Below, in pieces: positions 20,596 through 45,774 of a stretch of 64,000 bases of DNA. The notes beneath the pieces are model-generated. The model was not told the DNA's origin, ran no database searches, and saw nothing but the letters and a program-made list of their open reading frames with translations. Each line of letters starts with the position of its first letter. Position 1 is the first letter of the stretch. The position numbers were made by a program, and so were the translations under genes. Where the stretch lies: positions 434,001-498,000 of the forward strand of contig NZ_PGFV01000004.1 in NCBI RefSeq assembly GCF_021023135.1. The letters are read 5' to 3'. This DNA is from Brevibacterium sp. CCUG 69071 (lineage in GTDB: Bacteria; Actinomycetota; Actinomycetes; Actinomycetales; Brevibacteriaceae).

Positions 20596-21825
20596 TCAGC
20601 CGTCGGCGCCGCGACGCTCGGTGCTCCATCTGCCGAGCCTGAGAAGACAGAGACCGGCGACCAGGACCGTCCCCACCGCAAAAGCGATCGTCGAAGCAAC
20701 GAGACCTATCAAGAGCGCGAGTACGCCGACACCGATGATCGGCACCGACATTGCCAGATAAGCGAGGACGAAGTACGAGGTCGTCGCCGCCGTCCTATTC
20801 CGCACCTCGGTGACGGCGGTGATGGCACGCATGCCCGTGGTGAAGAGGAAGCCCTGTCCCGCCCCACCGAGGATCGCCGAGGCGATGAGCAGCGGCGTCG
20901 ACCCCGTCAGCAAAGCGACCGACAGGAACGCCATGCAGGCGATCTGGACGATGCCTCCGCACAGGACAAGGGTCCGATCGGCCAGCCGTTGGAACAGCAG
21001 CTGACACGCGGCCGAGGCTCCGAACATAGTGAAGACGACGGCACCGATGATGGCCGAGGAATCGATGCCAAGACTCTGCTGCATGAAGCTCGGTGCGACG
21101 GCTGAATACAGCCCGGCGATGGCAAAGCTTGCCACTGCCCCGGGCACGGCCCGGACGAAGACGGCACGGGACTCGGGCGGAACGGCCGGCAGCTGCAGAC
21201 GCAGGGAATGTGAACGCGACAGCGCGCTCTCCCTCACGCCCAGCAGCGCGGCCCCACCGATGAGGAGGAGTAGCGCATGGATGAGAAACGGAGTGAACAG
21301 CGGCCGAGGAAAAGCCTCGGCGATTGTTCCCGACAGGAGGTTACCCAATCCCAGCCCACCGATGTTCGCCGCGGTGGCTAGTGAGGTCGCGAGCCGACGC
21401 CTACCGGGAGGAGAATTTTCAAGGACGGCGACCGTGCCGGTGGCGGTGAAGATTCCTGCTGCGATTCCCGACATCACCCGCCCCACGTACAGGAGACCGA
21501 GGTGGTCGCCGATCATGAACAGCGCGGCGGAACCGAGCGAGAGGATGATGCCAGCGGCCAGCAACGGCTTCCTGCCCCAGGCCTCTGAGAGCCTGCCGAA
21601 GAAGACGAGCGCAGCGATGACGGCACCGGCATAGATCGAGAAGAGCAGGGTCGTCTGCGTACTGCTGAAGTCGAACTCGACCTGATACCGCGGGTAGAGC
21701 GGCGTCGGCAGAGTGGTGCCGATCATCACGACGGCGAATACATAGGTCGCCGCGGCCAGCGTCGACCCAGTGCCCGGCCGATCGTTTGCGGGTTCGGGTT
21801 TCGCGGTGGCACCGCGCCTCATCAT
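20596..21825 (-). CDS. MFS transporter, DHA1-like
   Basis: 409-residue, twelve-helix major facilitator. The helix 2-3 loop carries GRLSEAWGRKPLL (MFS motif A) and helix 4 VGRVMSGIAAGIF. Could export a drug or metabolite, or import an aromatic or heterocyclic substrate. It is the leftmost island gene, transcribed in the same direction as the amidase/hydroxylase operon but 51 bp beyond it. GGAGAG lies before ATG 21825. Its stop lies 5 bp from the duplicated ABC permease fragment, so the gene sits directly at the junction. Export of a toxic intermediate is one possibility in context. Confidence 0.88.
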   Translation of the reverse strand: MMRRGATAKPEPANDRPGTGSTLAAATYVFAVVMIGTTLPTPLYPRYQVEFDFSSTQTTLLFSIYAGAVIAALVFFGRLSEAWGRKPLLAAGIILSLGSAALFMIGDHLGLLYVGRVMSGIAAGIFTATGTVAVLENSPPGRRRLATSLATAANIGGLGLGNLLSGTIAEAFPRPLFTPFLIHALLLLIGGAALLGVRESALSRSHSLRLQLPAVPPESRAVFVRAVPGAVASFAIAGLYSAVAPSFMQQSLGIDSSAIIGAVVFTMFGASAACQLLFQRLADRTLVLCGGIVQIACMAFLSVALLTGSTPLLIASAILGGAGQGFLFTTGMRAITAVTEVRNRTAATTSYFVLAYLAMSVPIIGVGVLALLIGLVASTIAFAVGTVLVAGLCLLRLGRWSTERRGADG

Positions 21826-21876
21826 CGTCTCTCCACCACAGTTCGTTCACTCACGTATCAACCGTATGCGCTTCAC

Positions 21877-23280
21877 TCATAGCGCAGGTCTGCGCAACGC
21901 ATGTCCGGTAGCGGCTTCGAAATAGCGCGCGACGCGTAATACCTTTGCATCGCCGCCGACCGGTCCGATGATCTGCAGACCGATCGGCAGTCCGGTGGAG
22001 CTGAATCCGGAGGGAACACTCGCAGCAGGACACCCAGTGGCGGAGATGAGCGTCGTCGAGTCGACCCAGGCCAGATAGTCATCGATCGGCGAAGAGTTGA
22101 TCATCGTCGGATACTCCTCCTCCGCGGAGAAGGGGAGCACTTGAGAGGTCACCGTGACGAGCACATCGTGGGCTGAAAAGTAGTCATCCATCTCTGCCTG
22201 GAGCTGGCCACGTGCCTGGTCGAAGTCGAAGAAGTCCCTAGCTGTGAGGGCGAGACCGGCATTGACATCGGCCTGGAGCGAGGGCTTGAGACTCCCAGGA
22301 TGCGTCGCGTCGATGTCCCGTAGGTTCGCCGCGAACTCATAGGCCCTGGCCGTGCGAAATACGCCTCGGGCCGCGCTCAGATCAGGAACGGACTCACTGA
22401 GCCGAGCACCGAGGCCCGCGAAGACGGTCTCCGCTCCAGCAACCACGTCCCTCACCTCCGCCTCGAGCTCAAGCAGGCCTGCAAGATCTGGGGAGAATCC
22501 GATGACGGTCCGACTCAGATCGTCACCGTCATCGAGCCGAGGGCGGAAATTCGCCGAGGCGGGTGCGGGCTTCCGACTGCACACCTCCATCAGCCAGGCG
22601 ACGTCATCGACGGTGCGCGCCATGAAACCAGGCTGGCTCAGCCATTGCCACGGGCTCTCCGACAGCGTCCGAGGAATCCATCCGGGCGAGGGACGGAGAC
22701 CGACGATGTTGGCGAACGAAGCGGGCAGCCGTAGCGAACCGCCGGTGTCGGATCCGTCTCCGGCGGCTTGGACCCCGGAGGCGATGGCCGCAGCAGCACC
22801 GCCGGAGGAACCGGCGGCCGAACGAGTGGGGTCGTAGGGATTTTTCGTGGTCCCGAAGACGCGGTTTGCTGTGTGCGCACCTGCCGCAAATTCGGGCACG
22901 TTCGACTTGCCGGTCGAAATCACTCCGGCCGCCTGCAGACGAGCCACGATGGTGCTGGTCCGCTGCGGAACATGGTCGGCGTAGAGCTCACTGCCGTAGG
23001 TCGTGCGCATGCCCGCGGTATCGTGCGTGTCCTTATGAGTCATCGGTACGCCGAGGAGAACCGGCAGATCCCCTTCGCCCGCCGCACGCCGCCGGTCGGC
23101 CGCCGCGGCGGCTGCGAGCGCGCGCTCGGTTTGACGTGTGACGACCGCGTTGGTGGCCGGGTTGATCTCGTCGATGCGCTCAAAGTGTGCGTTCACCAGC
23201 TCAACGCTGCTCAGCTCACGACGGTTGAGTGCCTCGGCCTGTTCGGACAGCGAAAGCCAGGTCGGCGACTCGGCCGTCAC
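21877..23280 (-). CDS. Amidase, amidase-signature family
   Basis: 467-residue amidohydrolase. The GTG start at 23280 overlaps the CoxG-like stop as GTGA, which I prefer to an upstream ATG at 23307. The Ser-cisSer-Lys triad is visible: Lys in GVPMTHKDTHDTAG, the Gly/Ser-rich stretch SAAGSSGGAAAAIASG, and the nucleophile Ser in GSDTGGSLRLPAS. It hydrolyses an amide to acid plus ammonia. As last gene coupled to the molybdenum hydroxylase operon it probably acts on a late, ring-opened amide or ureide of the pathway. Substrate cannot be named from sequence; amidase-family members range from Glu-tRNA amidotransferase A to hydantoin and nicotinamide pathways. Confidence 0.9.
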   Translation of the reverse strand: MTAESPTWLSLSEQAEALNRRELSSVELVNAHFERIDEINPATNAVVTRQTERALAAAAAADRRRAAGEGDLPVLLGVPMTHKDTHDTAGMRTTYGSELYADHVPQRTSTIVARLQAAGVISTGKSNVPEFAAGAHTANRVFGTTKNPYDPTRSAAGSSGGAAAAIASGVQAAGDGSDTGGSLRLPASFANIVGLRPSPGWIPRTLSESPWQWLSQPGFMARTVDDVAWLMEVCSRKPAPASANFRPRLDDGDDLSRTVIGFSPDLAGLLELEAEVRDVVAGAETVFAGLGARLSESVPDLSAARGVFRTARAYEFAANLRDIDATHPGSLKPSLQADVNAGLALTARDFFDFDQARGQLQAEMDDYFSAHDVLVTVTSQVLPFSAEEEYPTMINSSPIDDYLAWVDSTTLISATGCPAASVPSGFSSTGLPIGLQIIGPVGGDAKVLRVARYFEAATGHALRRPAL

Positions 23281-23987
23281 CGACGACCGGCCAGGATTCC
23301 GACACACACACCGAGCAAGGCGGCACCCGCACCGATGGCCGCACCGGCGATGAAGCCGTCACCGCAGAGCCGGGACCCCGACGTGACAAAACCGGCAGGA
23401 GCTGCGGCATTCGCGGTGACCGCGGCATTCGATGGTGCTGTCGCACCCACAGGGCTACTTGTTCCCACTGATTCGCCGGTGCCCGCTGGGGCAGCTGCTC
23501 CGGCACCTGGTCTGCTGCCCGCACCGGTTTCGGTCTTCTCCGGCACACCGTCACGGATGGCTGCATCGATGTCGGCGAAGAACTTCTTCGCGATGCGCTT
23601 GGCGACTCCGCCGAGCATCCTCTGGCCTACGCCGCCGATGGGACCTCCGAGCACCGCATCGGCTTCCCACTCGATGGCGCTGCCGTTATCGGCTCCAGGT
23701 GACAGGGCCACGGAGATGTCTGCACCGATCGTCCCCGGTCCTCCCGCTCCCTTGGCGCTGAGGACGAACGAGGTGCCCTCGACTTCCTGGGAGAACGCGA
23801 CTGTGCCTTTGTATGTGCCCTTGATAGCCGCGACTCCCATTGTGAGAACGACGTCGAAGGAGCCGTCAGCGGTGCGGGTGAAGCTCTCAACTCCTGGGAT
23901 CGTCGCCGCAAGGATCTTCTCATCGTGGAAGGCAGCATAGGCCGTCGCCGGATCGGCTGTCATCGTGGCCGTGGAGGAAATGAGCAT
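23277..23987 (-). CDS. CoxG-like SRPBCC protein
   Basis: 236-residue protein: a CoxG/START-like domain in the first ~150 residues (SSTATMTADPATAYAAFHDEKILAATIPG), then a Pro/Ala/Gly/Thr-rich linker and a C-terminal hydrophobic helix that would tether it to the membrane. CoxG homologues accompany molybdenum hydroxylases of the CO-dehydrogenase/xanthine-dehydrogenase superfamily and can recruit or anchor the enzyme at the membrane. SD AAGGACG precedes the start. Located between the large subunit (12 bp upstream) and the amidase (GTGA overlap). Confidence 0.87.
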   Translation of the reverse strand: MLISSTATMTADPATAYAAFHDEKILAATIPGVESFTRTADGSFDVVLTMGVAAIKGTYKGTVAFSQEVEGTSFVLSAKGAGGPGTIGADISVALSPGADNGSAIEWEADAVLGGPIGGVGQRMLGGVAKRIAKKFFADIDAAIRDGVPEKTETGAGSRPGAGAAAPAGTGESVGTSSPVGATAPSNAAVTANAAAPAGFVTSGSRLCGDGFIAGAAIGAGAALLGVCVGILAGRR

Positions 23988-23999
23988 GACGTATCGTCC

Positions 24000-26408
24000 T
24001 TAATGATTCGGTGAGGTTACGCGGGAGAGGGAATTGTCGCCTTCGCGATGACTCGTTCGCATATGCCACAGGGTCGAGGGATCCAGCGGCATCGACCGGA
24101 TGGGGATTCTCTCGGCGTCTTCGATTGCCGAAGCGATCGCAGTTGCCGCGGGAATCGTCCCGGCCTCACCCGCTCCTTTGATGCCGAGCGGATTGAGCGG
24201 ACTCGGCGTCTCAAGGTGGTCGGTCTCGACGTGAGGGACTTCGGAGGCGAAGGGCATGAGGAAGTCCATGAATGAGGCATTGAGCAGCTGACCATCGGTG
24301 TCGTAGGCCATCTTCTCGTAGAGTGCCCCGCCGACTCCCTGCGCCACACCTCCGTGCACCTGCCCTTCGACGACAAGCGGGTTGACCATCGGCCCACAAT
24401 CATGGATGACGCAGTAGCGCAGAATCTTGATGTCTGCGGTCTCCGGATCGGTCTCGACGATGGCTGCGTGCATGCCGTTGGCAACGGTCGAACGCACCGG
24501 AGAGAAGAACTCCTGCTCTTCGAGCCCTGGCTGTTCACCGCCCTTGATCGAGGGTTCATCGGCGGCCGATTCTTTGGCGAACTGTGTCGCCGCGCGTGCA
24601 CTCTCATCGAAGGCGTACCGCAGCGGGTTCGACAGCACTGACACTGCGGCCAGGGGCATCGAGGAACTCGGATCACCCTGGACCTGAATCATTCCGTCGA
24701 CGATTTCGAGGTCCTGCGGATCAGCTTCGAGTGACTCCCCTGCGATCTTCAGCGCCTTCTCTTTGACCTTCTTCGCGGTGAGGTGGAGTGCGTTGCCAGC
24801 CATCACAGCACCGCGTGAACCCCACGTTCCCACTGAATAGGAAAGTTTGCGTGTGTCCCCGGTGCTGACGTGGACGTTGTCGAGTGGGACTCCCAGCTCA
24901 TCGGCGACGATCTGTGCGAACACTGTCGCATGAGCCTGCCCGTGAGTGGTCAGTCCCGTCCAGACGTTGACCCGACCGGATGTCTCGACCTCGATGTGTC
25001 CGCCCTCGTAGGGTCCGGCTCCGGTGCTCTCGATATAACAGGCGATGCCCAGGCCGACCCGGCGACCCTCACTGCGGGCCTGCTCACGATAGGATTCGAA
25101 ATCGTCCCAGCCGACGAGTTCCTTGAGCCTGGCCATCGAAGCGACGAAATCTCCGGAGTCGATATAGCCCTCGGCACCGTCCTGCATTCGCAGTCCCATC
25201 GGATGAGGGAAGTCGCGGACGAAGTTGCGCAGACGCACCTCGGTGCGGTCGAGCCCGAGTTCTGCGGCAATCGCGTCCATCGTCCTCTCCATCATGAAGA
25301 CTGCATGAGCGCGGCCGGCGCCTCGGTATGGGGTGACGATGACGGTGTTCGTGTACAGCGACCAGTACTCGACCCGAAATGACGGGATCACGTACGGGCC
25401 CATGATGTGGGTGGAGGTGTTGAGCGGAACGATCACGCCGTAGGGCAGGTAGGCGCCGTTGTCGTGCCAGAATTTCACGTCGAGGCCGAGAATGCGGCCC
25501 TCATCGTCGAAGCCGACCTTGACCCACTGGGTCTGCGCACGTTCATGTGCCGAGGAGATGAAGTGTTCGCGGCGATCTTCGGTCCACTTCACCGTCGTTT
25601 CAAGCGCACGCGCGGCACAGGCCACGGCAAGCTCTTCCGGCCAAGGGTGGTTGATCTTCACTCCGAAGGCGCCACCGACATCGGGAGTGATTACCTCGAC
25701 CTTGGTCAAGGGGAGTTCGAGCTTGGCTGCGAGCACGGCCCGCAGACCGGTGCTCGTCTGAGTCGAAGAGTGGACCTCGAGGCTGCCTTCTCCCGGATCC
25801 CAGCTCGCCACAACACCTTTGCCTTCCATTGGCATGCACGCGCTACGCTCGAATTCGAGGTCGAGTTCGAGGACGTAGGGAGCGGAATCCAAACCGGAGT
25901 CGACATCGCCGACCTTCTGCACGATGTGTGCGGCAACATTGTCGTCCATGCCTTCATGGACGATCCTGGTCCCTTCGCGAGATTGCTCGACACCGACGAC
26001 TGCCTCTTTGAAGCTGTAGTCGACATCGATGCGGTTCGCGGCATCCTCGGCGATGTAGCGATCCTTTGCGATGACCATGACGATGGGTTCGCCGACGAAG
26101 TTGACGTGATCTTTCGCGAGGGCATATCCCGTGTGTGGGGCGACGATCGACGGGTGCGGAATGAGCATTGGCAGTCGTTCGGCCGCCTGCCCGGGGAGGT
26201 CCTCATAGGTCCAGACCGCGATGACACCGTCGATGTCGAGAGCACCGGTGACGTCAATGTCGAGAATGTCCGCGTGAGCATGCGGGCTGCGTACGAATGC
26301 CGCGGCGATCGCGGTGCCGGAGACATCGTCGACATACCGGCCGTGGCCGGTGAGCAGGCGCGGGTCCTCGCGCCTGGTGATCTTCTGACCGAATAGACGA
26401 GTCGTCAT
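24000..26408 (-). CDS. Molybdenum hydroxylase large (Mo-pterin) subunit, xanthine dehydrogenase family
   Basis: 802-residue catalytic subunit that binds molybdenum cofactor and hydroxylates a substrate with water as oxygen source. N-terminus LFGQKITRREDPRLLTGHGRYVDD is typical of CoxL-like subunits; Mo-site segments include PDVGGAFGVK, TPYRGAGRAHAVF and the catalytic-Glu motif GAGEAGTIPAATAIASA near the C-terminus. The active-site loop is PYRGAGR, the form II type, not the AYxCSFR loop of true CO dehydrogenase, so CO is not the likely substrate; an N-heterocycle is. ATGA overlap with the 2Fe-2S subunit. Full length for the family. Confidence 0.93.
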   Translation of the reverse strand: MTTRLFGQKITRREDPRLLTGHGRYVDDVSGTAIAAAFVRSPHAHADILDIDVTGALDIDGVIAVWTYEDLPGQAAERLPMLIPHPSIVAPHTGYALAKDHVNFVGEPIVMVIAKDRYIAEDAANRIDVDYSFKEAVVGVEQSREGTRIVHEGMDDNVAAHIVQKVGDVDSGLDSAPYVLELDLEFERSACMPMEGKGVVASWDPGEGSLEVHSSTQTSTGLRAVLAAKLELPLTKVEVITPDVGGAFGVKINHPWPEELAVACAARALETTVKWTEDRREHFISSAHERAQTQWVKVGFDDEGRILGLDVKFWHDNGAYLPYGVIVPLNTSTHIMGPYVIPSFRVEYWSLYTNTVIVTPYRGAGRAHAVFMMERTMDAIAAELGLDRTEVRLRNFVRDFPHPMGLRMQDGAEGYIDSGDFVASMARLKELVGWDDFESYREQARSEGRRVGLGIACYIESTGAGPYEGGHIEVETSGRVNVWTGLTTHGQAHATVFAQIVADELGVPLDNVHVSTGDTRKLSYSVGTWGSRGAVMAGNALHLTAKKVKEKALKIAGESLEADPQDLEIVDGMIQVQGDPSSSMPLAAVSVLSNPLRYAFDESARAATQFAKESAADEPSIKGGEQPGLEEQEFFSPVRSTVANGMHAAIVETDPETADIKILRYCVIHDCGPMVNPLVVEGQVHGGVAQGVGGALYEKMAYDTDGQLLNASFMDFLMPFASEVPHVETDHLETPSPLNPLGIKGAGEAGTIPAATAIASAIEDAERIPIRSMPLDPSTLWHMRTSHREGDNSLSRVTSPNH

Positions 26409-26914
26409 AACCGGGCCCCCTCGGCACGCAGCTGGGCGGCTCTCTGGACCGCTGAGACGATGTTCTGGTAGCCAGTGCAGCGACAGAGGTTACCCGAAAC
26501 GGCTTCCCGTGCCTCTTCCTCGGTGGGGTTCGGGTTCTCGTCGATATAGGCGTCGATGGTCGTCACGAATCCGGGTGTGCAGAATCCGCACTGCAGTCCG
26601 TGGCAGTCGATGAATGCCTGCTGCACATCGGCAGGATTCTCGGGATCATCACCGACGCCTTCGACAGTCTTGATCTCGTGTCCTTGAGCGGTGACGGCGA
26701 ACATGAGGCAGGAGCGCACCGGGTCTCCGTCAAGCTGAACAGTGCATGCGCCGCACACTCCGTGCTCACAGCCCACGTGGGTGCCGGTCAGTTCGAGGTC
26801 CTGCCGCAGCACATCGGAGAGCAGCTTCCGATCGGGAACATCGAGAACGTGCGGAACGCCGTTGACGGAGAGTCGGATTGTCGATGTCGGTTCGGTGCCT
26901 ATGTCAGCGGTCAT
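26405..26914 (-). CDS. Molybdenum hydroxylase small (2Fe-2S) subunit
   Basis: 169-residue iron-sulfur subunit. ATG 26914 overlaps the FAD-subunit stop (ATGA); an in-frame extension upstream is a basic low-complexity stretch and is not used. The plant-type cluster Cys are in CEHGVCGACTVQLDGDPVRSC, and the second cluster Cys are in LQCGFCTPGF and NLCRCTGYQNI. It moves electrons from the Mo site to FAD. Second gene of the FAD/FeS/Mo operon. Confidence 0.95.
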   Translation of the reverse strand: MTADIGTEPTSTIRLSVNGVPHVLDVPDRKLLSDVLRQDLELTGTHVGCEHGVCGACTVQLDGDPVRSCLMFAVTAQGHEIKTVEGVGDDPENPADVQQAFIDCHGLQCGFCTPGFVTTIDAYIDENPNPTEEEAREAVSGNLCRCTGYQNIVSAVQRAAQLRAEGARL

Positions 26915-27915
26915 GCTCGTCTTCTCCCCGTGTCGTTTTCGATACCCTTGCCAGTTCCAGATCCAGCGTCGGCGCCGGTGTCGGTTCCGTTGCCGGCGTC
27001 GTTTCCTGCTGTGTGGACCTGCGCGCCCTGTATGCGTGCATTGTCGGTTCGGCACAGTCGTCGGAAGAGTCGCGAGGCGATCACTCCGGCCAGATGTCTG
27101 CGATAGTCGGCCGTTGCGTGGATGTCTCCGCCGGGGTCGATGAAGTCCCGCACCGCGTCGACGACTCTCGATACGACGCCTGCAACCTCGTCGATCTGAG
27201 TTCCTGAGACCACCTCTCCGAGATCGAGAACCTCGGGAATGTCCGTGACAGAGATGAATCCGCAGCGCAGTCCGGTCACCGTCTCGTCTTCGACGTCGAC
27301 GATCATCCCCACGCCCGCGAGACCGTAGTCTCCGCTGCGTCGAGCGAGTTCGTCGAATCCTGCACGCGATCCTGCGGGCAACGCCGGGAAGATCGCGCGG
27401 GTGATGAGCTCATCGGATTCCAGACAGGTTTCCAAGGGCCCGACGTTGAGTTCCTCGGCGCTCAGGGTCCTGATGCCGCGCCTGCTGCGCACATCGACGC
27501 TACCGCCGGTGAGCGCGAGGATCATCGGCATTTCACCGTTCGGGTCCGCGTGCGCCAGGGAACCGACGGTCGTACCCCGGTTGCGCACCGCTGGGTGGGC
27601 AACGAAACGAAGAGCCTCAGCGAGGAGAGGGTTGGCTCGCGCGATATCGACGGAGCGTTCGACCTGCCGATGGGTCACGGTGGCACCGACCGCGATCTCC
27701 TGCTGTCCTTCGGGACCGGAAACAGTCAGCTCGTCGAGTCCCGATACTCCGGTGATATCGATGAGGTCACTGGGAGCGGCCAGCCGCATATTGAGCACCG
27801 GCACGAGGCTCTGCCCTCCCGCGAGTACCTTTCCTGACACGCTGTGCTCACTGAGCAGGTCCAGAGTCTGATCGATCGATGTCGGTCGGTGGATCCGCAA
27901 TGGGGGTGGCTTCAT
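26911..27915 (-). CDS. Molybdenum hydroxylase medium (FAD-binding) subunit
   Basis: 334-residue FAD subunit. FAD contacts are expected at VLAGGQSLVPVLNMRLA and TTVGSLAHADPNGEMP; the C-terminal CO_deh_flav_C domain is present. Its last ~35 residues are unusual (a Gly/Asn/Asp/Thr-rich tail, NDAGNGTDTGADAGSGTGKG), perhaps a flexible linker. First of the three subunits, only 4 bp after the nucleobase permease stop, suggesting one transcript from 29.4 kb leftward. The final electron acceptor is not evident. Confidence 0.93.
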   Translation of the reverse strand: MKPPPLRIHRPTSIDQTLDLLSEHSVSGKVLAGGQSLVPVLNMRLAAPSDLIDITGVSGLDELTVSGPEGQQEIAVGATVTHRQVERSVDIARANPLLAEALRFVAHPAVRNRGTTVGSLAHADPNGEMPMILALTGGSVDVRSRRGIRTLSAEELNVGPLETCLESDELITRAIFPALPAGSRAGFDELARRSGDYGLAGVGMIVDVEDETVTGLRCGFISVTDIPEVLDLGEVVSGTQIDEVAGVVSRVVDAVRDFIDPGGDIHATADYRRHLAGVIASRLFRRLCRTDNARIQGAQVHTAGNDAGNGTDTGADAGSGTGKGIENDTGRRRA

Positions 27916-27919
27916 CGTC

Positions 27920-29395: not shown

Positions 29396-29550
29396 GTGTC
29401 TCTCCTCGCCGTTGAGAATGGCCGGTTCCGATCCAACGTCCGAGGTGGCCGGGCCACCCGAATTGATGTCGGCACGCTCGCGGATCACTCCGACTCAGGA
29501 ACTGACTCTATTGCGCCGGTGCGGCCTGCATCACGTCATTAACTGCCAAA

Positions 29551-29589
29551 GAAACACCGTAGCCTTCGGCAGTGTTCGCCAAGTGTTTC
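29551..29589. promoter_or_regulatory. GAAACAC/GTGTTTC inverted repeat upstream of the NCS2 permease
   Basis: GAAACAC (29551-29557) and GTGTTTC (29583-29589) are perfect inverted arms; a third half site, AGTGTTC, lies between (29571-29577). In the 218-bp gap between the PucR regulator and permease genes. It may be the PucR target or part of a read-through terminator. Confidence 0.4.
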
Positions 29590-29613
29590 TCCGAGGCATC
29601 CGGACTCGCGCGC

Positions 29614-31431: not shown

Positions 31432-31466
31432 GCATTGACGATAACAGGGCGGGATAGCCTGTCGAA
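31432..31466. promoter_or_regulatory. Overlapping divergent leaderless promoters, pucR / DUF2877-fdrA
   Basis: Only 35 bp separate the two start codons. Rightward: TAGCCT (31455-31460) lies six bases before ATG 31467. Leftward: TATCGT (31443-31438) lies six bases before ATG 31431, with TCGACA (31465-31460) 16 bases upstream as -35. The two promoters overlap, so polymerase binding should be mutually exclusive and one bound regulator could switch both. Confidence 0.55.
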
Positions 31467-35599: not shown

Positions 35600-35690
35600 G
35601 GTCAGCGCTGAGTCTGCTGCGGTGTGCTCTCAAATGCACGCCGAAGCAGGCTCGACGGTGTGCGGAGAACGCAGACCGAAATGAACTCGA

Positions 35691-38038: not shown

Positions 38039-38949
38039 CGCCTTGCCTCGGTCACGGAGAGGACAGCGTTGGCGGGCGCCAGATCATCGGCATCTTTGAG
38101 CACGGCGGACAGGGTGGCAGCAATCGACGGCTCGTCGAGCTCGTCGAGGTCGAGGGCGCGCAGGGCACGGAGCCAGTCGATGGCCTCGGCCGTGCCCGGC
38201 GGTTTGAGCAACCCTGCTGTGCGGAGGCGATTCGCGGCGTCCACGACGGCCAGGCGCAGGGACTGGCTGGCATCGGGAACATGCAGAGACAGGATCGTCG
38301 ATTCCACCTCGGCGTCGGGCTGATCGAACCATTGGTAAAGGCAGCGGCGACGCAGCGCATCATGGAGATCGCGCGTGCGATTCGAGGTGAGAATGACCAA
38401 GGGCGGCGTTTCGGTCGAAATCGTGCCGAGTTCGGGGACGGTGACCGACCAGTCGGCGAGCGCCTCGAGCAGGAGTGCGTCGAATTCGTCACCGGCCCGG
38501 TCGATCTCGTCGATGAGCAGCACCGGACGCGGACCATCGGCGCCGACCTGCGATGATCCTTCGATGGCCTGCAGAATGGGACGAGCGAGGAGGAATTCCC
38601 GTTGGTGGAGTTCATCGTCAAGATGTGGAGCATTGATGCGCTCCCCCGCCGAGGAGGACGCCGCTTCGATCGTTCGCACGTGGAGGATCTGCTTCGCGAA
38701 GTCCCAATCGTAGAGTGCTTGGCTGGCATCAAGACCGTCGTGGCACTGTAGGCGGATGAGCGGGCCTCCCGAGGCCCGAGCGAGAGCCCTGGCCAGACTC
38801 GTCTTCCCGACACCCGGTGCCCCTTCACAGAGAAGCGGTTTGCCGAGGCGCTGAGCGAGTACGCAGGTGGTCGCCAGTTCGGGCGCGACGATGTGTCCCA
38901 CACGCTCCAGCGCCTGCGCCAGTGAACGGGGATCATCGAATATGGTCAT
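38035..38949 (-). CDS. MoxR-type AAA+ ATPase, CoxD-like
   Basis: 304-residue AAA+ ATPase. Walker A CEGAPGVGKTSLARAL (around residue 40), Walker B VLLIDEIDRAGDEFDALLLEAL, sensor 1 TSNRTRD and an Arg-rich C-terminal lid. Works with the VWA protein, as CoxD/CoxE do, to remodel a molybdenum enzyme. Coupled by 4 bp to the VWA gene and 28 bp from the carbamate kinase stop. Confidence 0.92.
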   Translation of the reverse strand: MTIFDDPRSLAQALERVGHIVAPELATTCVLAQRLGKPLLCEGAPGVGKTSLARALARASGGPLIRLQCHDGLDASQALYDWDFAKQILHVRTIEAASSSAGERINAPHLDDELHQREFLLARPILQAIEGSSQVGADGPRPVLLIDEIDRAGDEFDALLLEALADWSVTVPELGTISTETPPLVILTSNRTRDLHDALRRRCLYQWFDQPDAEVESTILSLHVPDASQSLRLAVVDAANRLRTAGLLKPPGTAEAIDWLRALRALDLDELDEPSIAATLSAVLKDADDLAPANAVLSVTEARR

Positions 38950-38977
38950 GGCGTACTCGTCTCCTCCCGACCCGAGT

Positions 38978-39916
38978 CTACTGATCGTCAGCGGTCACCA
39001 CGGTGCCCACCGTCCCAGCAGCTGCGGCCGAAAGCTGCGAGAGCTCGGCGATGACGGCACGAGTGCCGCCGTTGTCGACGAAATCGATGATGGCGTCGAC
39101 CTTCGGCCCCATCGACCCCGAGGCGAACGTGCCCGTATCGCGCAGCCCCTTGAGTTCCGCCGTAGTCACGGCACCGACGTCTTCGGCCTCGGGCGTGCCA
39201 TAGCCTGCGACCGCACAGGGCACATCGGTGGCGATGATGAGGAGATCGGCGCCCACCGATGCGGCAAGTCTGGCCGCACTGAGGTCCTTGTCGATGACTG
39301 CTGAGATCCCGGTGCATCCGCCGTCGGCGGCAACGACTGGGATGCCGCCTCCGCCTGCGGCGACGACAACCCATCCGGAGTCCGCGAGGAAGGAGACCAT
39401 CGGTGTCTCGAGGATCGTCACCGGTGCCGGGGAGGCCACCACCCGGCGCCACCCCTTTTCTCCGAAGTCTTTCCACGTCTGGCCATGTGCAGTCATCTCA
39501 GCCGCGAAGTCCGCATCCTGGTAGCTGCCGATCGGTTTGACGGGATCGGCGAACGCGGGATCATCGGAGTCGACAACGGTGCGCGTCACCACGGCGGCGA
39601 CCTTGTTCTCAAGCCCCTGGGCGGCGAACTCCCGTTCGAGCTCATTGACGATCGTGAAACCGATTGTCCCCTGGGTCTGCGCCCCGCACCAGTCAAGGCT
39701 CACCGGAGGCAGCTCATGCGCGGAGAGTTCGTTCTTGCGCAGGATATTGCCCACCTGGGGGCCGTTGCCGTGGGTGATGACGAGTTCGTGTCCCGCGGCA
39801 GTGAGTTCGGCCAGGTGGACTGCTGCGGCGGCGATCGCGTGCTGCTGGGCGGATGGAGACGCATCTCCATCCAGCCCAGTCATCGCGTTGCCCCCGAGGG
39901 CGACGAGAACTCTCAC
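38978..39916 (-). CDS. arcC: Catabolic carbamate kinase
   Basis: 312-residue amino-acid-kinase-fold enzyme that makes ATP from carbamoyl phosphate and ADP, giving carbamate (then NH3 and CO2). Signatures: ALGGNAM, GHELVITHGNGPQVGNIL, FLADSGWVVVAAGGGGIPVV and GSMGPKVDAIIDFVDNGG. GTG start overlaps the HyuB stop (GTGA). There is no arginine deiminase or ornithine carbamoyltransferase nearby, so the carbamoyl phosphate probably comes from the FdrA-DUF1116/DUF2877 system, as with the E. coli AllK kinase. Confidence 0.94.
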   Translation of the reverse strand: MRVLVALGGNAMTGLDGDASPSAQQHAIAAAAVHLAELTAAGHELVITHGNGPQVGNILRKNELSAHELPPVSLDWCGAQTQGTIGFTIVNELEREFAAQGLENKVAAVVTRTVVDSDDPAFADPVKPIGSYQDADFAAEMTAHGQTWKDFGEKGWRRVVASPAPVTILETPMVSFLADSGWVVVAAGGGGIPVVAADGGCTGISAVIDKDLSAARLAASVGADLLIIATDVPCAVAGYGTPEAEDVGAVTTAELKGLRDTGTFASGSMGPKVDAIIDFVDNGGTRAVIAELSQLSAAAAGTVGTVVTADDQ

Positions 39917-41982
39917 AGCCAGTCGACCGCCGCAGCCGAAGCGCCGTCGACGGACAGCTCGGCGTAGCCGGGTCCACGGTCGAAGAAAGGTTCGTTCGTC
40001 TCGCGTTCGGCTCGCATTCTCTCCCGCAGCGTCGCAGTTGCAGCCTCGTCGACCTCGGCGCCGTCGACACCGGCTGAGTCGGCCCCGACCGAGACACTAG
40101 GGTCGGCGGTGACAACGACACCATAGGAATCGCGGGCACCATCGATGCTCACCTTGCCCCAACTGACATCGCGGAGCACCTCATCGACAGGGCGGTCAAG
40201 CGGATCGCCCCAGCCGCCACCGCCGGTCGTGCGGATGCGCACAACCTCTCCCGCTCGGATCACCTCGGCATCGGCAAGTGCGTCGATCTCACGCTCGTTG
40301 GCCCCTCCTGGCTCGATTGTCACCTGGAAAGGCTTACCGGCCTTCCCGCCCTTGACTCCCCAGCAGGCGAGGATGGAGCGGTCGGCGATCGACATGAAGT
40401 GACCGTCCTTGAGCATCCGGATGTGCTTCTCGTAGCCGAGGCCGCCACGGAATCGACCCGCACCTCCGGAGTCCACGGCCAGGCCGAGACGTTCGACGCG
40501 GAACGGGAACCTAGATTCGGTGAACTCGGTCGGCAGGTTGCGTGAGTCCGGTACCACGTGGATCGTGTCCTCACCGTCGGAATAGTAGCGTCCTCCGGAA
40601 CCGCCGCCGAGGACCTCACGCATAAGGTAGTCCTTACCGTCTCGGTCCTTGCCGTAGACGCCGGTGTAGCGGATGGTCTCCTGGTCGGCGGGCATCCGTC
40701 CGTCCACGGCCTTCGCGACCACTCCGGCGAGGACACCGAGAAGGCGGAGGATGACGAATGTGCGCGCGTTCGTAGGACCGGGGAATTCGGGAGTGAGCAG
40801 CGTGCCCTTCTCCGGGAAACGCATCTCGATGAGCGGCACGATCCCTTCGTTGACATCGAGCTCAGCCATCCGCTCAGGGGTGTCTGCAAGGTTACGCAGG
40901 ATCGGGGCAAGCCACTTCTTGAGGAAGTTGCCACCAACATAGTCACCACAGTGGTTGATCGGTCCGGCGGCCTGTGCTGCGGTGCCGGTGAAGTCGACGA
41001 TCAGCCGCGGCCCGTCGTCGGGCCCACCTGTCGGCGTCTTCGTCAGTGTGATGCGCTGGGTGTGGAGCGTGGGGTCGGAGACACCATCGTGCTCCGCGTA
41101 GTCCTCCCAAACGTACTGACCGTCGGGTATCTTAGATAGGATCTCCCGGCGATAGGTCTCCGTGGAGTTCTGCAGGATCGTATCGAAGGCGGCCTCAACG
41201 GTCTCCACGCCGTAGCGGGTGAAGAGCTCAGTCAGTCGACGCGCACCCATGAGGCAAGCCGAGCATTCGGCATCGAGGTCGGCCGAGAGCGAATCCGGCA
41301 TCCGCGAGTTGCGGGCCATGATGCGTAGGGCAGATTTGTTCGGCTTGCCTTCGGACCAGAGCTTGATCGGAGGGATCATCAGTCCCTCTTCGAAGACGCT
41401 TGTCGCACCTGAAGGCATCGAACCCGGGCAGGCGCCGCCGATGTCGTCGTGGTGGCCGAACGCTTGGACGAAGCATACGACTCGGCCGTCAGCGAAGACA
41501 GGTACGGTCACGCACATGTCCGGAAGATGGCCGATGCCGCCCTCGGATTCGTAGACGTCATTGTGAAAAAAGACGTCGCCCTCGCACATCTCCTCAATGG
41601 GGAAGTCGCGGACGACAGGGTGGACGAGCGCGGAGTATGAACGGCCGGTGAGCTTGCGCAGCTGACGGTCATGAATGCCGGCGCGGAAATCGTGGGCGTC
41701 GCGGATCATAGGCGATCGGGAGGTCCGCGAGATCGAGGTCTCAACCTCCATCTCCACGCTGGCCAAGGTGCCTTCGACGATCTCCACGATGATCGGGTCG
41801 ACGCTCGAACCCGATGACGTGAGACGGTTGCCGTGCTCATAGGCCGTGGGTAGACCTGCAGAGTTGATCGGCGAGGCAGCGATGTAGTCCGCGAGCTCCT
41901 GACCAACCAGGGGCTCGGTGCGCAACATCGAGCCCGAATCGACGATCGATGCCCCTGCGCCTGTTTCAGCTGTCGCGGTCAT
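39913..41982 (-). CDS. hyuB: Hydantoinase/oxoprolinase B subunit
   Basis: 689-residue HyuB-family subunit of an ATP-dependent ring-opening enzyme. Recognisable segments: SPMIRDAHDFRAGIHDRQLRKLTGRSYSALVHP near residue 90, MCEGDVFFHNDVYESEGGIGHLPDMCV, and PFRVERLGLAVDSGGAGRFRGGLG. Family members open 5-oxoproline, hydantoin or N-methylhydantoin, or (as acetone carboxylase) carboxylate ketones. ATGA overlap with hyuA and GTGA overlap with carbamate kinase. The usual length is 520-700; the tail after residue ~600 is family-typical. The exact ring substrate is not given by sequence. Confidence 0.92.
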   Translation of the reverse strand: MTATAETGAGASIVDSGSMLRTEPLVGQELADYIAASPINSAGLPTAYEHGNRLTSSGSSVDPIIVEIVEGTLASVEMEVETSISRTSRSPMIRDAHDFRAGIHDRQLRKLTGRSYSALVHPVVRDFPIEEMCEGDVFFHNDVYESEGGIGHLPDMCVTVPVFADGRVVCFVQAFGHHDDIGGACPGSMPSGATSVFEEGLMIPPIKLWSEGKPNKSALRIMARNSRMPDSLSADLDAECSACLMGARRLTELFTRYGVETVEAAFDTILQNSTETYRREILSKIPDGQYVWEDYAEHDGVSDPTLHTQRITLTKTPTGGPDDGPRLIVDFTGTAAQAAGPINHCGDYVGGNFLKKWLAPILRNLADTPERMAELDVNEGIVPLIEMRFPEKGTLLTPEFPGPTNARTFVILRLLGVLAGVVAKAVDGRMPADQETIRYTGVYGKDRDGKDYLMREVLGGGSGGRYYSDGEDTIHVVPDSRNLPTEFTESRFPFRVERLGLAVDSGGAGRFRGGLGYEKHIRMLKDGHFMSIADRSILACWGVKGGKAGKPFQVTIEPGGANEREIDALADAEVIRAGEVVRIRTTGGGGWGDPLDRPVDEVLRDVSWGKVSIDGARDSYGVVVTADPSVSVGADSAGVDGAEVDEAATATLRERMRAERETNEPFFDRGPGYAELSVDGASAAAVDWL

Positions 41983-44108
41983 TTGCTGTCCTCCTGACCA
42001 GTGGTGCGAGTGATGATGATATTGGCGGCACTGTCGATGCGCGCTGTGAACTCCGGGTGGAGCGGTACGGTGGAGCCGAACTCTTCGATGATCGCCGGGC
42101 CGGAGATCTCGTCCCCTGCCAGCAGTTCTTCTCGCCAGTAGACCGGGGTATCGACGAAGCCGTGGGACGCGTCGAAGCAGACGGGTCGATTGCCCGTCTT
42201 ACCTCTCTCGTCGAGGGGGGCAGCACCATCGGCGGAGGCGATATGGCGGGTCTCGGGACGAGTGATCGGGCCGATGCCGGAGACTCTGAGGTTGACCCAT
42301 TCGACGAACTGGTCCGCGGTGTCGGCGAAGTCATAGCCGTAGAGCTTCTTGTGCTCGGCGTGGAAGGCCCGTGTCACCTCGTCGGCCCATTCTCTTGTGA
42401 CCGGACCCGACGGTGCGGAGACACGAACCTCGAAGGCCTGACCGAAGTAGCGCAGATCGACCGAACGGTCGAACTGGTGGTTCGAGGCAGGGAAGCCTTC
42501 ACCATTGAGCGCTTTGGTGGCGCGATCTGTCAGTCCGGCGAGGAGATCGGCCACCTCGGCGATGTCGAGGCGATCGTCGCGACTGACGTGCGTTTGGACG
42601 TAGTCGTTCTTCACGTCGACCGTGAGCAGGCCGAACGCGGAGACGTTGCCCGGGTTGAGCGGGACGACGACACCTGCGAGGTCGAGAACGTCGACGAGGG
42701 TGCAGGCCAGCAGCGAACCCGAGCCGCCGAAGGTCGTGAGCATGAAGTCACGCACGTCGAGCCCGCGCTGCACGGAGACCTGGCGCAGAGCGTTAGCCTG
42801 ATTCCAAGCAGAGATCTCGAGGATGCCCGTCGCAGCCTTCTCTTCGCTCAGGCCCAGGCGCGTTGCGATGTCGGCGATGCCGGACTTCGCGGCATCGATA
42901 TTGAGTGGAATCTCCCCGCCGAGGAGGTGGGGCGGGATTCGTCCGAGGAAGACGTGGGCATCGGTGATCGTAGGTTCGGCTCCGCCGTTGCCGTAGCAGA
43001 TGGGGCCCGGGTCAGCGCCCGCCGACTGCGGGCCGACTTTGAGTTGTCCTTCGGGGGTGGTCCACGCGATCGAACCTCCTCCGGCACCGACGGTGACGAC
43101 ATCGATCATCGGAATCTTCGAGGGGTACACACCGACGGATCCTTCAGTCGTCAGTGCTGGTTCACCGTCGATGACAACTGTGACGTCGGTCGACGTTCCA
43201 CCGCCATCGCAGGTGAGCACCTTGTCGAATCCGGCTTCCCGGGCAATGAGTCCCGCGCCCAGGGCACCCGCTGCGGGGCCAGAGAGCACGGTCGTGATCG
43301 GCTGGTGGACGACCTCTTCGGCAGAGAGAACGCCGCCGTTGGACTTCATAATGTAGAAGGGCAGCGTCGAATCTTCTTCGACGCCGGTGTAGGCGTCGAG
43401 GCGGTCGTGGATATTACGCACGTACATCGAAACCTTGGGCTTGACGGCCGCGTCGACGAGGGTGGTCATTGATCGCTCGTATTCGCGGTATTCGCGCAGC
43501 ACCTCGGAGCTCAGAGACACAGTGGCGTCGGGGTGGACCTCGGTGAGGATTTCACGCATTCTCTGCTCGTGGACAGGATTCGCATAGGCATGGAGGAAGT
43601 TCACGCCCAGGGTCATGATGCCCTGGTCCTTGAACCACTGCGCGACCTCGCGGGCCTGGGAATCGTCGAAGGGACGTACCTCTTTACCTTCGAAGTCGAA
43701 TCGTCCGGAGACGGTTTTGACGAGGTCGGCGGGGACGATCCGGTCAGGCTTCACCCAGAAATAGGAGTTTCCGTAGCCATCAGGGACGGCCTGACGAGCG
43801 ATCTCGAGGATGAATTCGTAGCCTTCGGTCGTAATGAAGCCGAGACGGTCGAGTTTTCCTTCGAGCAGTTGGTTCGTGGCGACGGTTGTACCGTGGCTGA
43901 CTGCGCTGATGTGCTCAGCAGACACCGTGTCTCCGAGCAGCGCGAGGACCTTGTCGATGCCGTTGATGAAGCCATCGGCAGGATTAGACGGAGTAGAAGG
44001 TGTCTTCGTCGTCGTCAGTGTGCCAGTGGTTTCGTCGAATGCGACGATGTCAGTGAATGTTCCGCCGGTGTCTATGCCGATGCGGATCCGTGGTGCTTGG
44101 GGCGACAT
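41979..44108 (-). CDS. hyuA: Hydantoinase/oxoprolinase A subunit
   Basis: 709-residue ATP-binding subunit of the HyuA/HyuB pair. ATG 44108 has GGAAGGA five bases upstream; an ATG 12 codons earlier lacks one. Actin-like nucleotide motifs: RIGIDTGGTFTDIVAFD at the start, VSHGTTVATNQLLEGK, and VLTCDGGGTSTDVTVV and GAGGGSIAWTTPEGQLKVGPQSAGADPGP in the middle. It would phosphorylate the ring carbonyl so that the amide can be hydrolysed. First gene of the six-gene leftward operon hyuA-hyuB-arcC-moxR-VWA-xdhC. Confidence 0.94.
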   Translation of the reverse strand: MSPQAPRIRIGIDTGGTFTDIVAFDETTGTLTTTKTPSTPSNPADGFINGIDKVLALLGDTVSAEHISAVSHGTTVATNQLLEGKLDRLGFITTEGYEFILEIARQAVPDGYGNSYFWVKPDRIVPADLVKTVSGRFDFEGKEVRPFDDSQAREVAQWFKDQGIMTLGVNFLHAYANPVHEQRMREILTEVHPDATVSLSSEVLREYREYERSMTTLVDAAVKPKVSMYVRNIHDRLDAYTGVEEDSTLPFYIMKSNGGVLSAEEVVHQPITTVLSGPAAGALGAGLIAREAGFDKVLTCDGGGTSTDVTVVIDGEPALTTEGSVGVYPSKIPMIDVVTVGAGGGSIAWTTPEGQLKVGPQSAGADPGPICYGNGGAEPTITDAHVFLGRIPPHLLGGEIPLNIDAAKSGIADIATRLGLSEEKAATGILEISAWNQANALRQVSVQRGLDVRDFMLTTFGGSGSLLACTLVDVLDLAGVVVPLNPGNVSAFGLLTVDVKNDYVQTHVSRDDRLDIAEVADLLAGLTDRATKALNGEGFPASNHQFDRSVDLRYFGQAFEVRVSAPSGPVTREWADEVTRAFHAEHKKLYGYDFADTADQFVEWVNLRVSGIGPITRPETRHIASADGAAPLDERGKTGNRPVCFDASHGFVDTPVYWREELLAGDEISGPAIIEEFGSTVPLHPEFTARIDSAANIIITRTTGQEDSK

Positions 44109-44183
44109 CTTCGTCCTTCCAGGTCGCGTGGGATTTGTCACCATCTTTCCCGGTGCCCACGCTCACTGAACCGGCAAGTGATG

Positions 44184-44203
44184 ACAAACGCACTGGAGTT
44201 TGT
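44184..44203. promoter_or_regulatory. Inverted repeat ACAAAC-N8-GTTTGT upstream of hyuA
   Basis: Perfect 6-bp arms (44184-44189 and 44198-44203), 76-95 bp upstream of the hyuA start and inside the 143-bp gap to the NmrA-like gene. Suitable as an operator for a dimeric regulator such as PucR; no matching copy was seen upstream of the permease. Confidence 0.35.
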
Positions 44204-44251
44204 TGGCGAGAGTTCACAACTGACCGATTCGCCCAAGGAATCACTGGAGAA

Positions 44252-45139
44252 TCACTCGTCGAGGTTGCCGAAGAGTTCCCCGATGATCACTTCGTCGACG
44301 GCCCTGGCCTCACGACCGAGAATCGCCGGGATCCCCGAGGACCCACATGGCAGCCCGTAGTAGTCGTAGTAGTCGAACATCGCAGTCAGCCATTCGCGTT
44401 CACGGGCGTCGAGGCCCGATTCAGCGCCGCGTGCTTCTTGCTCGCGCGCCCAGTCCGCGGGGGTGATGACGTTCAGCGCCACCGCGGTGCCGAGGACCCG
44501 GCTGGCCACCTGTACGACCTCCCGGATGCTCACAAGCCGCGGCCCTCCGAGTTCGAGGGTTGCCCCGAGGTGGTCGTTGCTCGTCAGCAGGCGGGCGGCC
44601 GCTTCGCCGACATCGCGCAGGCCGATGAGACCGAAGGGCGTGTCCGGGTTATAGGCCACACTAATCCCGGGGCTGGCGCTGCGCAGCCCCGGAAGAACAT
44701 TGTCGACATAGGCGCAGGGTTGGACGATGGTGAAGGGTAGAGAACTTCTGCGCACCCGGTCCTCAGACTCGGCCTTCGCCAGATGGTGCGGCATCGAAGG
44801 CGCATAGGCAGCGGCGACCGAGTGATAGACGATCCGCTCGATCCCGGCCAAGTGGCAGGCGTTGAGGAGCTTCTCCGTCAGCTCGAGCTCGTCGCCGTGC
44901 AGGTTCGGCGCCATAAGGTAGGCAGCTTGGCAGCCCCGCAGCGCAGCGACAGGATCGGTCAGTTCCTTGCGCCCCAAAGGGACCGGTAAAGCGCCTAAGG
45001 CACGGACCGCCTCGGCGATGGCACGCCCGGTTTTGCCCGTACCTGAGACGATGGCGATCCTGCGCGCCGGTGCGCCATCGCCCGTTGCCGATGTGGCATT
45101 ACCTGTGATCGGCGACGTCGTGGAGAAAGCTGAGCTCAT
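44252..45139 (-). CDS. NmrA-like NAD(P)-binding protein
   Basis: 295-residue atypical short-chain dehydrogenase/NmrA-family protein. After a ~25-residue Ser/Thr/Gly-rich N-terminus, IAIVSGTGKTGRAIAEAVRALGALPVPLGR is a nucleotide-binding Rossmann start; VYHSVAAAYAPSMPHHLAKAESEDRVRRSSLPFTIVQPCAY covers the region equivalent to the SDR active site, but the Tyr-x-x-x-Lys pair is not evident. Likely a redox sensor or an NADPH-dependent reductase. Coupled by 4 bp to the MocA-like gene. Confidence 0.82.
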   Translation of the reverse strand: MSSAFSTTSPITGNATSATGDGAPARRIAIVSGTGKTGRAIAEAVRALGALPVPLGRKELTDPVAALRGCQAAYLMAPNLHGDELELTEKLLNACHLAGIERIVYHSVAAAYAPSMPHHLAKAESEDRVRRSSLPFTIVQPCAYVDNVLPGLRSASPGISVAYNPDTPFGLIGLRDVGEAAARLLTSNDHLGATLELGGPRLVSIREVVQVASRVLGTAVALNVITPADWAREQEARGAESGLDAREREWLTAMFDYYDYYGLPCGSSGIPAILGREARAVDEVIIGELFGNLDE

Positions 45140-45774
45140 GTGTCATGTCCTTTCAGGTGCAGCCCCCTGCGGGCCGCCGATTCGGGAGTGTCGAGATCGA
45201 TGATTCCACTGCGCTCTGGCGGCAGAAGGTCGGCGCATTCGATGCCGCTGACCTCGTGGAGAGCCAGCATGGTGCGTAAGCCTTTGTCTCCGTGAGCGGA
45301 GTCGATCGCTTCGGCAAAGTGGTCTCGGCCAATCGCGACGGGGTGTCCGGGAACCGAGTTCCAATGGGCACGCGCCAGGGCGCCGAGGGTCAGCGCATCG
45401 AGCATACGACCATAAGCCTCGGCAGGGACATCAGGGAGATCGACGAGGGAGATGACTGCACCGGAAGCACCGTGTGGAACTGCCTGCAGGCCCGCCCGCA
45501 GAGACGTGCTCAACCCTTCGCCGAAACATGGGTTCTCAACCACCCGCGCCCGAGATGTGACGAGCCGGGAGGCTTCCGCAATGCAGGGGCCGAGCACGAC
45601 GAGTACGTCCGCGTCGAAACCACGTGAGGCGGCAGCTTCAGACATCCGCTCGACCTGTCTGGCCACAAGTGACGTGCCATCCTCGTAGTGCAAGAGAGCC
45701 TTCGGTCCTCCCATGCGCGTGCCGCTTCCGGCCGCGAGGAGAACCAGACTCGGCACCTCAGTCGGCTGATCCAC
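45136..45774 (-). CDS. MobA/MocA-like nucleotidyltransferase (Mo cofactor maturation)
   Basis: 212-residue nucleotidyltransferase. LLAAGSGTRMGGPKALLHYEDG is the nucleotide-binding motif and ISLVDLPDVPAEAYGRM the metal/pterin region. It most likely makes the cytidine dinucleotide form (MCD) of Mo cofactor used by CO-dehydrogenase-like hydroxylases, as E. coli MocA does. GTG start at 45774; the upstream TCTAAT (near 45793) may be the -10. Its presence with XdhC, CoxD and CoxE completes a dedicated maturation set for the island hydroxylase. Confidence 0.88.
   Translation of the reverse strand: MDQPTEVPSLVLLAAGSGTRMGGPKALLHYEDGTSLVARQVERMSEAAASRGFDADVLVVLGPCIAEASRLVTSRARVVENPCFGEGLSTSLRAGLQAVPHGASGAVISLVDLPDVPAEAYGRMLDALTLGALARAHWNSVPGHPVAIGRDHFAEAIDSAHGDKGLRTMLALHEVSGIECADLLPPERSGIIDLDTPESAARRGLHLKGHDT

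Follow-up and report, generated by a model that had tools for sequence, protein, structure and literature searches.

The anaerobic allantoin pathway of Escherichia coli has an oxamate branch (allFGHK) in which the transcarbamylase AllFGH interconverts oxalurate with oxamate plus carbamoyl phosphate (PMC11326118), and AllFGHK outside the enterobacteria has already been published, in nitrifiers (PMC12625717). A second described route is the oxidative degradation of pyrimidines, which proceeds via barbiturate to malonate plus urea (PMC3758960). Here we describe a gene island of Brevibacterium sp. CCUG 69071 that bears on both systems. It spans positions 20596 to 45774 of a 64,000-nucleotide stretch of DNA (hereafter the window; contig C15, positions 434001-498000, of the 4.13 Mb genome G000) and shares with the E. 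coli oxamate branch homologues of AllF, AllG, AllH and carbamate kinase. For the oxidative uracil and thymine route, we know of no genes assigned to the dehydrogenase or to the step that consumes ureidomalonate.

The island differs from each of its closest described counterparts. AllF and AllG, which are separate genes in E. coli K-12, are fused here, and the transcarbamylase is joined to a molybdenum (Mo) hydroxylase and to HyuAB. The latter has both subunits and the domains of the ATP-dependent N-methylhydantoinases, caprolactamases and 5-oxoprolinases. With oxidative pyrimidine degradation (Bar, ureidomalonase) the island has in common a nucleobase permease, an oxidizing enzyme and, in most relatives examined, a Bar-type barbiturase, whereas AllFGH and carbamate kinase stand where ureidomalonase would be expected, HyuAB is added, and barbiturase is missing in the present organism. 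The Mo hydroxylase resembles the aerobic CO dehydrogenase-like 'group 5' or form II enzymes in its subunits and maturation set and passes model NF040766, but it carries a PYRGAGR active-site loop and has pyrimidine- or ureide-related genomic partners.

We propose that the island serves oxidative pyrimidine catabolism. For its relatives this assignment, which is drawn from sequence comparisons, is probable; for the present Brevibacterium, with AllFGH acting on ureidomalonate, it is moderately likely. More tentatively, an energy-conserving pyrimidine branch may be widespread in Actinomycetes. Its 'group 5 CO dehydrogenase' would be the uracil/thymine hydroxylase reported in 1952, its HyuAB would be an ATP-dependent (5-methyl)barbiturase able to replace barbiturase fully, as here, and its AllFGH, as a ureidomalonate (malonamate) transcarbamylase, would recover that ATP via carbamate kinase. 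If true, this would supply candidate genes for a little-known oxidative uracil/thymine route, a second substrate for the AllFGH transcarbamylase family, and an example of ATP being formed directly in nucleobase breakdown. Any genome could be searched for the four-protein signature, and cultured Brevibacterium strains make the reading testable. Among the titles and abstract openings surveyed in the open-licence literature, none connected barbiturase to a gene cluster for a Mo hydroxylase, HyuAB or AllFGH.

Gene identity, order and co-occurrence

Within the island, Pfam and NCBIfam profiles give strong matches for all gene families that a first-pass annotation of this DNA had named: NCS2 permease, Mo hydroxylase, HyuA/HyuB, FdrA-DUF1116, DUF2877, carbamate kinase, amidase and PucR regulator. 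AllF, AllG and AllH, which together make up an oxamic transcarbamylase, are all represented (PF00549, PF06545 and PF11392). The AllH-like (DUF2877) subunit is encoded on the plus strand at 31467..32588 (PF11392, 72 bits), together with the 1008-amino-acid AllF-AllG fusion at 32573..35599 (PF06545, which is DUF1116, 297 bits; PF00549). Carbamate kinase, on the minus strand at 38978..39916, falls short of TIGR00746 (331 bits, cut-off 358) and passes NF009007 (281 bits, cut-off 266). Identities to the E. coli proteins are 45% for AllG, 36% for AllF, 29% for AllH (over 130 amino acids) and 41% for the carbamate kinase AllK.

Read from right to left, the minus strand encodes MocA-like and NmrA-like proteins, HyuA, HyuB, carbamate kinase, a CoxD-type AAA protein, CoxE and XdhC. 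The middle of the island carries AllH and then fused AllF-AllG on the plus strand, after which the minus strand, again from right to left, encodes PucR, the NCS2 permease, CoxM, CoxS, CoxL, CoxG, the amidase and an MFS transporter. Stop and start codons overlap at 45136/45139, 41979/41982, 39913/39916, 38035/38038 and 26405/26408, which indicates operons.

This arrangement recurs in other genomes. A search with the AllFG protein gave 262 related stretches in named genomes, of which the best 80 were fetched; the nearest named relatives among them are Brevibacterium (83% identity for B. renqingii). AllF/AllG on one strand and divergent PucR, NCS2, CoxM, CoxS and CoxL keep their order in Brevibacterium, Actinomadura, Thermomonospora, Nocardioides, Aeromicrobium and uncultured relatives. 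Among the fetched loci the block often includes CoxG and amidase, and in many the maturation genes lie nearby, while the loci from Proteobacteria and Bacillota have beside AllFG mostly the kinase alone or none of the window's gene types. Genes in the fetched loci were called by a simple codon-position script that may err in start or strand and that missed several genes found by tblastn (in locus L127 all of them). One stretch of genome G222 (loci L144/L145) holds AllFG, PucR, NCS2, CoxM, CoxL, CoxG, amidase, HyuA, HyuB, kinase, barbiturase, an AccA/AccD-like carboxyltransferase and an acyl-CoA ligase, with CoxS uncalled by the script.

From the genomes behind the 80 loci we picked 20 for searches with HyuA and with PF09663, the ring-opening amidohydrolase family to which barbiturase belongs. 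An orthologous HyuA is present in 18 of them, at 58-91% identity to the window protein, whereas other HyuA copies do not exceed 42%. PF09663 is likewise found in 18 of the 20, one of which (G011) has it in fragments. The genome of locus L066 (G011) has no HyuA at 60% identity or more and only fragments of barbiturase, and a Leucobacter genome (G004) has neither.

Joint occurrence was assessed in 345 genomes sampled evenly across the class Actinomycetes, of which 72 have PF09663, 79 AllG, 67 the HyuA orthologue and 69 the CoxL orthologue. All four markers occur together in 60 genomes, which by our reading of the tables span 11 families, and AllG, HyuA and CoxL occur together in 62. Partial sets are few (AllG alone in 10, PF09663 alone in 4, other combinations in 12). 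Among the 69 CoxL genomes, 66 have barbiturase, 66 AllG and 64 HyuA, so that CoxL accompanies HyuA in 64 of 67 cases. HyuA and CoxL were scored from at most three and two best candidates per genome, respectively, and some orthologues may have been missed. G261 is scored as lacking HyuA, though its barbiturase coordinates equal those of the T. echinospora genome (G013), whose HyuA lies in two pieces, and G220 and G110 count as positive from partial matches. Urease alpha served as the control and is not associated with the module (23 of 60 full-set versus 125 of 285 other genomes; p 0.47).

The markers are also physically close. HyuA and barbiturase occur together in 63 genomes and share a contig in 46, in 45 of which they lie no more than 36 kb apart (median 9.4 kb). 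Of the 66 genomes with both AllG and PF09663, 42 carry the two on a single contig, and in 34 of these the distance is at most 48 kb. In G079, AllG is 1.7 Mb distant while HyuA, CoxL and barbiturase lie within ~22 kb. The block order kept across genera and the joint occurrence of AllG, HyuA and CoxL argue that the island is more than a chance assembly, and gene identity, synteny and co-occurrence make it a solid case of a real, co-inherited unit. The first-pass annotation had viewed these uptake, Mo hydroxylase, ATP-dependent ring-opening, transcarbamylase, kinase and amidase functions as one joined set unlike the allantoin setting of E. coli, and both points are borne out. Its description of the pathway as new holds for the joining of transcarbamylase and kinase to the Mo hydroxylase and HyuAB, but not for the oxidative pyrimidine route via barbiturate, which was already published (PMC3758960, as above).

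Ring opening and the proposed pathway

The clearest clue to the substrate comes from the relatives. Against solved structures, the PF09663 protein of locus L126 scores 715 bits with Barbiturase in the PDB versus 339 bits with the best cyanuric acid hydrolase, and that of L145 scores 654 versus 316 bits. By these comparisons, the relatives' island carries a true barbiturase and not a cyanuric acid hydrolase. A cyanuric acid pathway of the AtzD type was considered, as the cyanuric acid amidohydrolase model NF052395 is passed (484 bits, cut-off 360), and was rejected: the Barbiturase structure scores about twice the bits, and the window's genome is without PF09663. Stretches were fetched for barbiturase from 18 genomes, 17 of which contain the protein, and it directly adjoins carbamate kinase in 13 of these 17; the exceptions are G013, G226 and the Brevibacterium genomes G002 and G241. 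In loci L134 (B. gallinarum) and L148 (another Brevibacterium), barbiturase adjoins a second, distant NCS2 permease (28-29% identity to that of the island), and the fetched 20 kb hold no carbamate kinase.

The Mo hydroxylase consists of three subunits encoded on the minus strand: CoxM (26911..27915; FAD subunit, PF00941, 131 bits), CoxS (26405..26914; [2Fe-2S] subunit, PF01799 and PF00111) and CoxL (24000..26408). The listed open reading frame (ORF) of CoxS extends to 27055, but homology begins near an inner ATG, so the start is better placed at 26914, giving 169 amino acids. The PYRGAGR loop of CoxL is present in the orthologues of every one of the 30 fetched loci spanning it (two of these loci being one genome), and it fits what we take to be the form II enzymes. 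The corresponding loop of form I CO dehydrogenase, AYxCSFR, occurs neither in the window nor in any of these 30 loci. Linkage to barbiturase makes CoxMSL a candidate oxidizer of uracil or thymine to barbiturate. If this is right, the NF040766 family is at least partly misnamed and its CO dehydrogenase label would be corrected.

The hydantoinase-type enzyme has both subunits with the full set of Pfam domains: HyuA at 41979..44144 (PF01968, PF05378 and PF19278) and HyuB at 39913..41982 (PF02538, 456 bits), both on the minus strand. The genes for HyuA, HyuB and carbamate kinase overlap in the window, and the island's HyuA orthologues are set apart from other HyuA proteins by the identity gap given above and by sharing 64 of their 67 genomes with this Mo hydroxylase. 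In our preferred interpretation, HyuAB would spend ATP on opening the ring of barbiturate or 5-methylbarbiturate, and the kinase would regain that ATP. Two of the sampled genomes bear on this. In G286, which lacks AllG and barbiturase, PucR, NCS2, CoxM, CoxL, HyuA and HyuB are retained; G226 has neither HyuA nor AllG but retains NCS2, CoxM, CoxL and barbiturase. Either opener can thus accompany this Mo hydroxylase in the absence of the other, a pattern suggesting that the products of the hydroxylase are substrates of both. Where the two coexist, as in most genomes, one may serve uracil and the other thymine.

From these assignments we infer the following substrates and order of steps. The NCS2 permease (27920..29488, minus strand; PF00860, 241 bits; TIGR00801, 294 bits, cut-off 292) would take up uracil or thymine; its closest NCBIfam model is the pyrimidine permease RutG (TIGR03616, 364 bits, under the cut-off of 759). 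CoxMSL would then oxygenate C6 to give barbiturate or 5-methylbarbiturate. Ring opening to (methyl)ureidomalonate would fall to barbiturase, HyuAB or both in the relatives and to ATP-dependent HyuAB here, the likely ring opener in a genome that has no barbiturase. Ureidomalonate, the product of barbiturase, is to malonate what oxalurate is to oxalate, its N-carbamoyl amide, and exceeds oxalurate by one CH2. AllF-AllG with AllH would convert ureidomalonate and phosphate to malonamate and carbamoyl phosphate, a phosphorolysis analogous to the oxalurate split in E. coli, and carbamate kinase would turn carbamoyl phosphate into ATP, NH3 and CO2, the ATP repaying that spent by HyuAB. Finally, the amidase, or a CN-hydrolase in some relatives, would cleave malonamate to malonate and NH3.

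An AllG tree is compatible with a changed substrate. It includes 83 of 87 loci plus the window, since L148-L150 have no AllG match and L038 was dropped for having no more than 330 aligned letters. A branch with 100/100 support separates 38 of the 84 rows, which are the Actinomycetota minus Leucobacter, from E. coli AllG. The 'island' label in this tree is our own, and several rows (e.g. L017, L034, L057 and L068) are from stretches too short for a whole island. Four alignment columns are at least 95% conserved on each side of the branch yet differ between the two sides (703 W/P, 730 Y/F, 879 L/F and 976 G/H), while 88 columns are conserved alike. The clade and these four columns would permit a different substrate but may equally reflect nothing more than kinship.

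The amidase-signature hydrolase (21877..23307, minus strand; PF01425, 293 bits; GSSGG and GSDTGGS motifs) is our proposed malonamate amidohydrolase and could alternatively be a ureidomalonase. Among the fetched stretches of 19 compared genomes, an amidase is present in 8 (in one at 33% identity), a CN-hydrolase in 7 (in one at 34%) and both in none, and in several islands the CN-hydrolase lies between CoxG and HyuA, the position that the amidase has in others. This pattern agrees with an amide-cleaving step for which either family could serve. Some islands also carry an acyl-CoA ligase, a class III CoA-transferase and an AccA/AccD-like carboxyltransferase, as the use of malonate could need. 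Although urease alpha is present in the window's genome, a match is absent from 37 of the 60 full-set genomes; urea therefore need not be a product, and a route that avoids urea is attractive.

Competing explanations

Several observations weigh against the pyrimidine assignment. The window's own genome has no match in a profile search for PF09663, and hence no barbiturase. Of the 57 genomes of the genus, 17 have HyuA; PF09663 is confined to 5 of these, so that 12 of the 17 HyuA-bearing Brevibacterium genomes, including this one, are without barbiturase. Locus L004 of B. aurantiacum ATCC 9175 has the island as well, with no barbiturase in its fetched 23 kb. The strongest clue to the substrate is therefore missing in the very organism under study, where either HyuAB alone must open the ring or the substrate must differ. 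HyuA is nearest to caprolactamase (alpha-subunit model, 511 bits, under cut-off) and to N-methylhydantoinase, its nearest solved structure (463 bits, PDB), and to nothing known to act on barbiturate. Most relatives have both openers, which would require a division of labour. The pairwise associations among the four markers (Fisher p 4e-50 to 1e-59) are uncorrected for kinship, and kinship alone may account for the separation of the AllG clade from E. coli. Furthermore, NF040766 names CoxL an aerobic CO dehydrogenase at 1393 bits. At the malonate end, the amidase matches malonamidase E2 weakly (76 bits, with many family members stronger), and the fetched stretches of 4 of the 19 compared genomes lack both amidase and CN-hydrolase. 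The acyl-CoA ligases fit generic models best (NF005858 in L125/L135, where malonyl-CoA synthase comes next but under cut-off; a fatty acyl-CoA synthetase model in L145), and no malonate-use genes are found among the 28 flank ORFs of the window that were scanned.

The first-pass annotation had favoured a hydantoin-like ring oxidized to parabanate and opened to oxalurate, which AllFGH would split into oxamate and carbamoyl phosphate, with oxalate as the end product. Support for this scheme comes from the experimental assignment of E. coli AllFGH to oxalurate and oxamate (PMC11326118, as above), from the resemblance of HyuAB to N-methylhydantoinase and caprolactamase, and from class III CoA-transferases near some islands, for which CoA:oxalate CoA-transferase is the second-best model and formyl-CoA transferase ranks lower, all under cut-off. 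We nevertheless consider it quite unlikely, as it has no place for the barbiturase that accompanies CoxL in 66 of 69 genomes and lies near HyuA, and because AccA/AccD-like neighbours suit malonate better than oxalate. In L129/L130, the neighbour of the class III CoA-transferase, which had been suspected to be an oxalyl-CoA decarboxylase, is an AccD-AccA-like carboxyltransferase, so that support for oxalate is lost; the malonate decarboxylase models we know of are absent from the matches of this protein. The true barbiturase of the relatives points to uracil or thymine, barbiturate, ureidomalonate and malonate in place of the hydantoin series, and the first-pass annotation was right about the type of pathway and its novelty but probably wrong about the ring. 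A different objection is that 63 of the 345 genomes have both barbiturase and HyuA, which is odd if the two open the same ring. The island might accordingly house two pathways, one in which barbiturase, Mo hydroxylase, AllFGH and kinase act on pyrimidines and another in which HyuAB acts on an unrelated lactam or hydantoin, with only the second complete here, where barbiturase is missing. Such a division is unlikely given that HyuA follows CoxL so closely (64 shared among 67 HyuA and 69 CoxL genomes), also where barbiturase is lacking (G000, G043 and G286), and that the HyuA, HyuB and kinase genes overlap.

The amidase could instead be the ureidomalonase with which the published route ends (PMC3758960, as above), releasing malonate and urea for urease and leaving AllFGH and the kinase to some other ureide. 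Its AtzE-like and allophanate-hydrolase-like relatives (NCBIfam) and the urease alpha match in the window's genome would agree with this role, as would G286, where AllG is missing but CoxL, HyuAB and an amidase (33% identity) are retained. Its likelihood is small, however, because the 37 full-set genomes without a urease match would lose the urea nitrogen and because AllG is present in 66 of the 69 CoxL genomes. Least probable by far is a true CO dehydrogenase cluster that merely adjoins unrelated ureide genes. The NF040766 score and the CoxG, CoxD, CoxE and CoxI partners would be expected of such a cluster, but the PYRGAGR loop in place of AYxCSFR, the close tracking with AllG, HyuA and barbiturase, and the adjoining nucleobase permease all speak against it.

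Remaining island genes and surroundings

Beyond the families already named in the first-pass annotation, the island encodes CoxG, XdhC, CoxE, CoxD-type AAA, MocA, MFS transporter and NmrA-like proteins. All are on the minus strand, as is the PucR-family regulator (29614..31431; PF07905, PF17853 and PF13556). The maturation genes comprise an XdhC/CoxI-type Mo enzyme maturation factor (35691..36824; PF13478 and PF02625), whose listed ORF extends to 36929 and whose start is better placed at 36824 (377 amino acids), the VWA protein CoxE (36821..38038; PF05762, 79 bits) and a CoxD-like AAA ATPase (38035..38949; AAA models; NF047784, 241 bits, under cut-off). A MocA-like molybdenum cofactor cytidylyltransferase is encoded at 45136..45774 (PF12804, 101 bits; TIGR03310, 82 bits, under cut-off), and a CoxG-like protein at 23277..23987 (PF06240, 72 bits). 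The gene for the NmrA-like NAD(P)-binding protein (44252..45139; PF05368, 50 bits) adjoins HyuB in Nocardioides and Aeromicrobium. The MFS transporter (20596..21825; PF07690, 115 bits) is encoded by the final gene past the amidase.

In the Aeromicrobium island L126, genes for ACR3 arsenite efflux and an arsenite methyltransferase lie between NmrA and carbamate kinase (L126:7728-9889). An ABC-2 exporter pair at 46053-47632 of the window adjoins MocA, and a similar pair (50% and 57% identity) adjoins XdhC in L126, either by chance or as a conserved neighbour.

Allantoinase, allantoate amidohydrolase and ureidoglycolate dehydrogenase are absent from the window proteins scanned, the whole genome not having been searched for them. 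The 28 flank ORFs represent other kinds of gene than the island. At 19313-20374, an amino acid permease match begins at profile position 119 of 470, such that the N-terminal part is seemingly missing, possibly through a broken gene or a wrong frame. A sortase and two SpaA-type pilin-like proteins form a pilus locus at 5075-9811. Finally, the row of genes at 50752-57101 (a GAF-PucR regulator, HMG-CoA reductase [PF00368], an HMGL-like lyase [PF00682], a 167-amino-acid ORF without a Pfam match and a TctA-type transporter) looks like an operon for the uptake and degradation of mevalonate or 3-hydroxy-3-methylglutarate.

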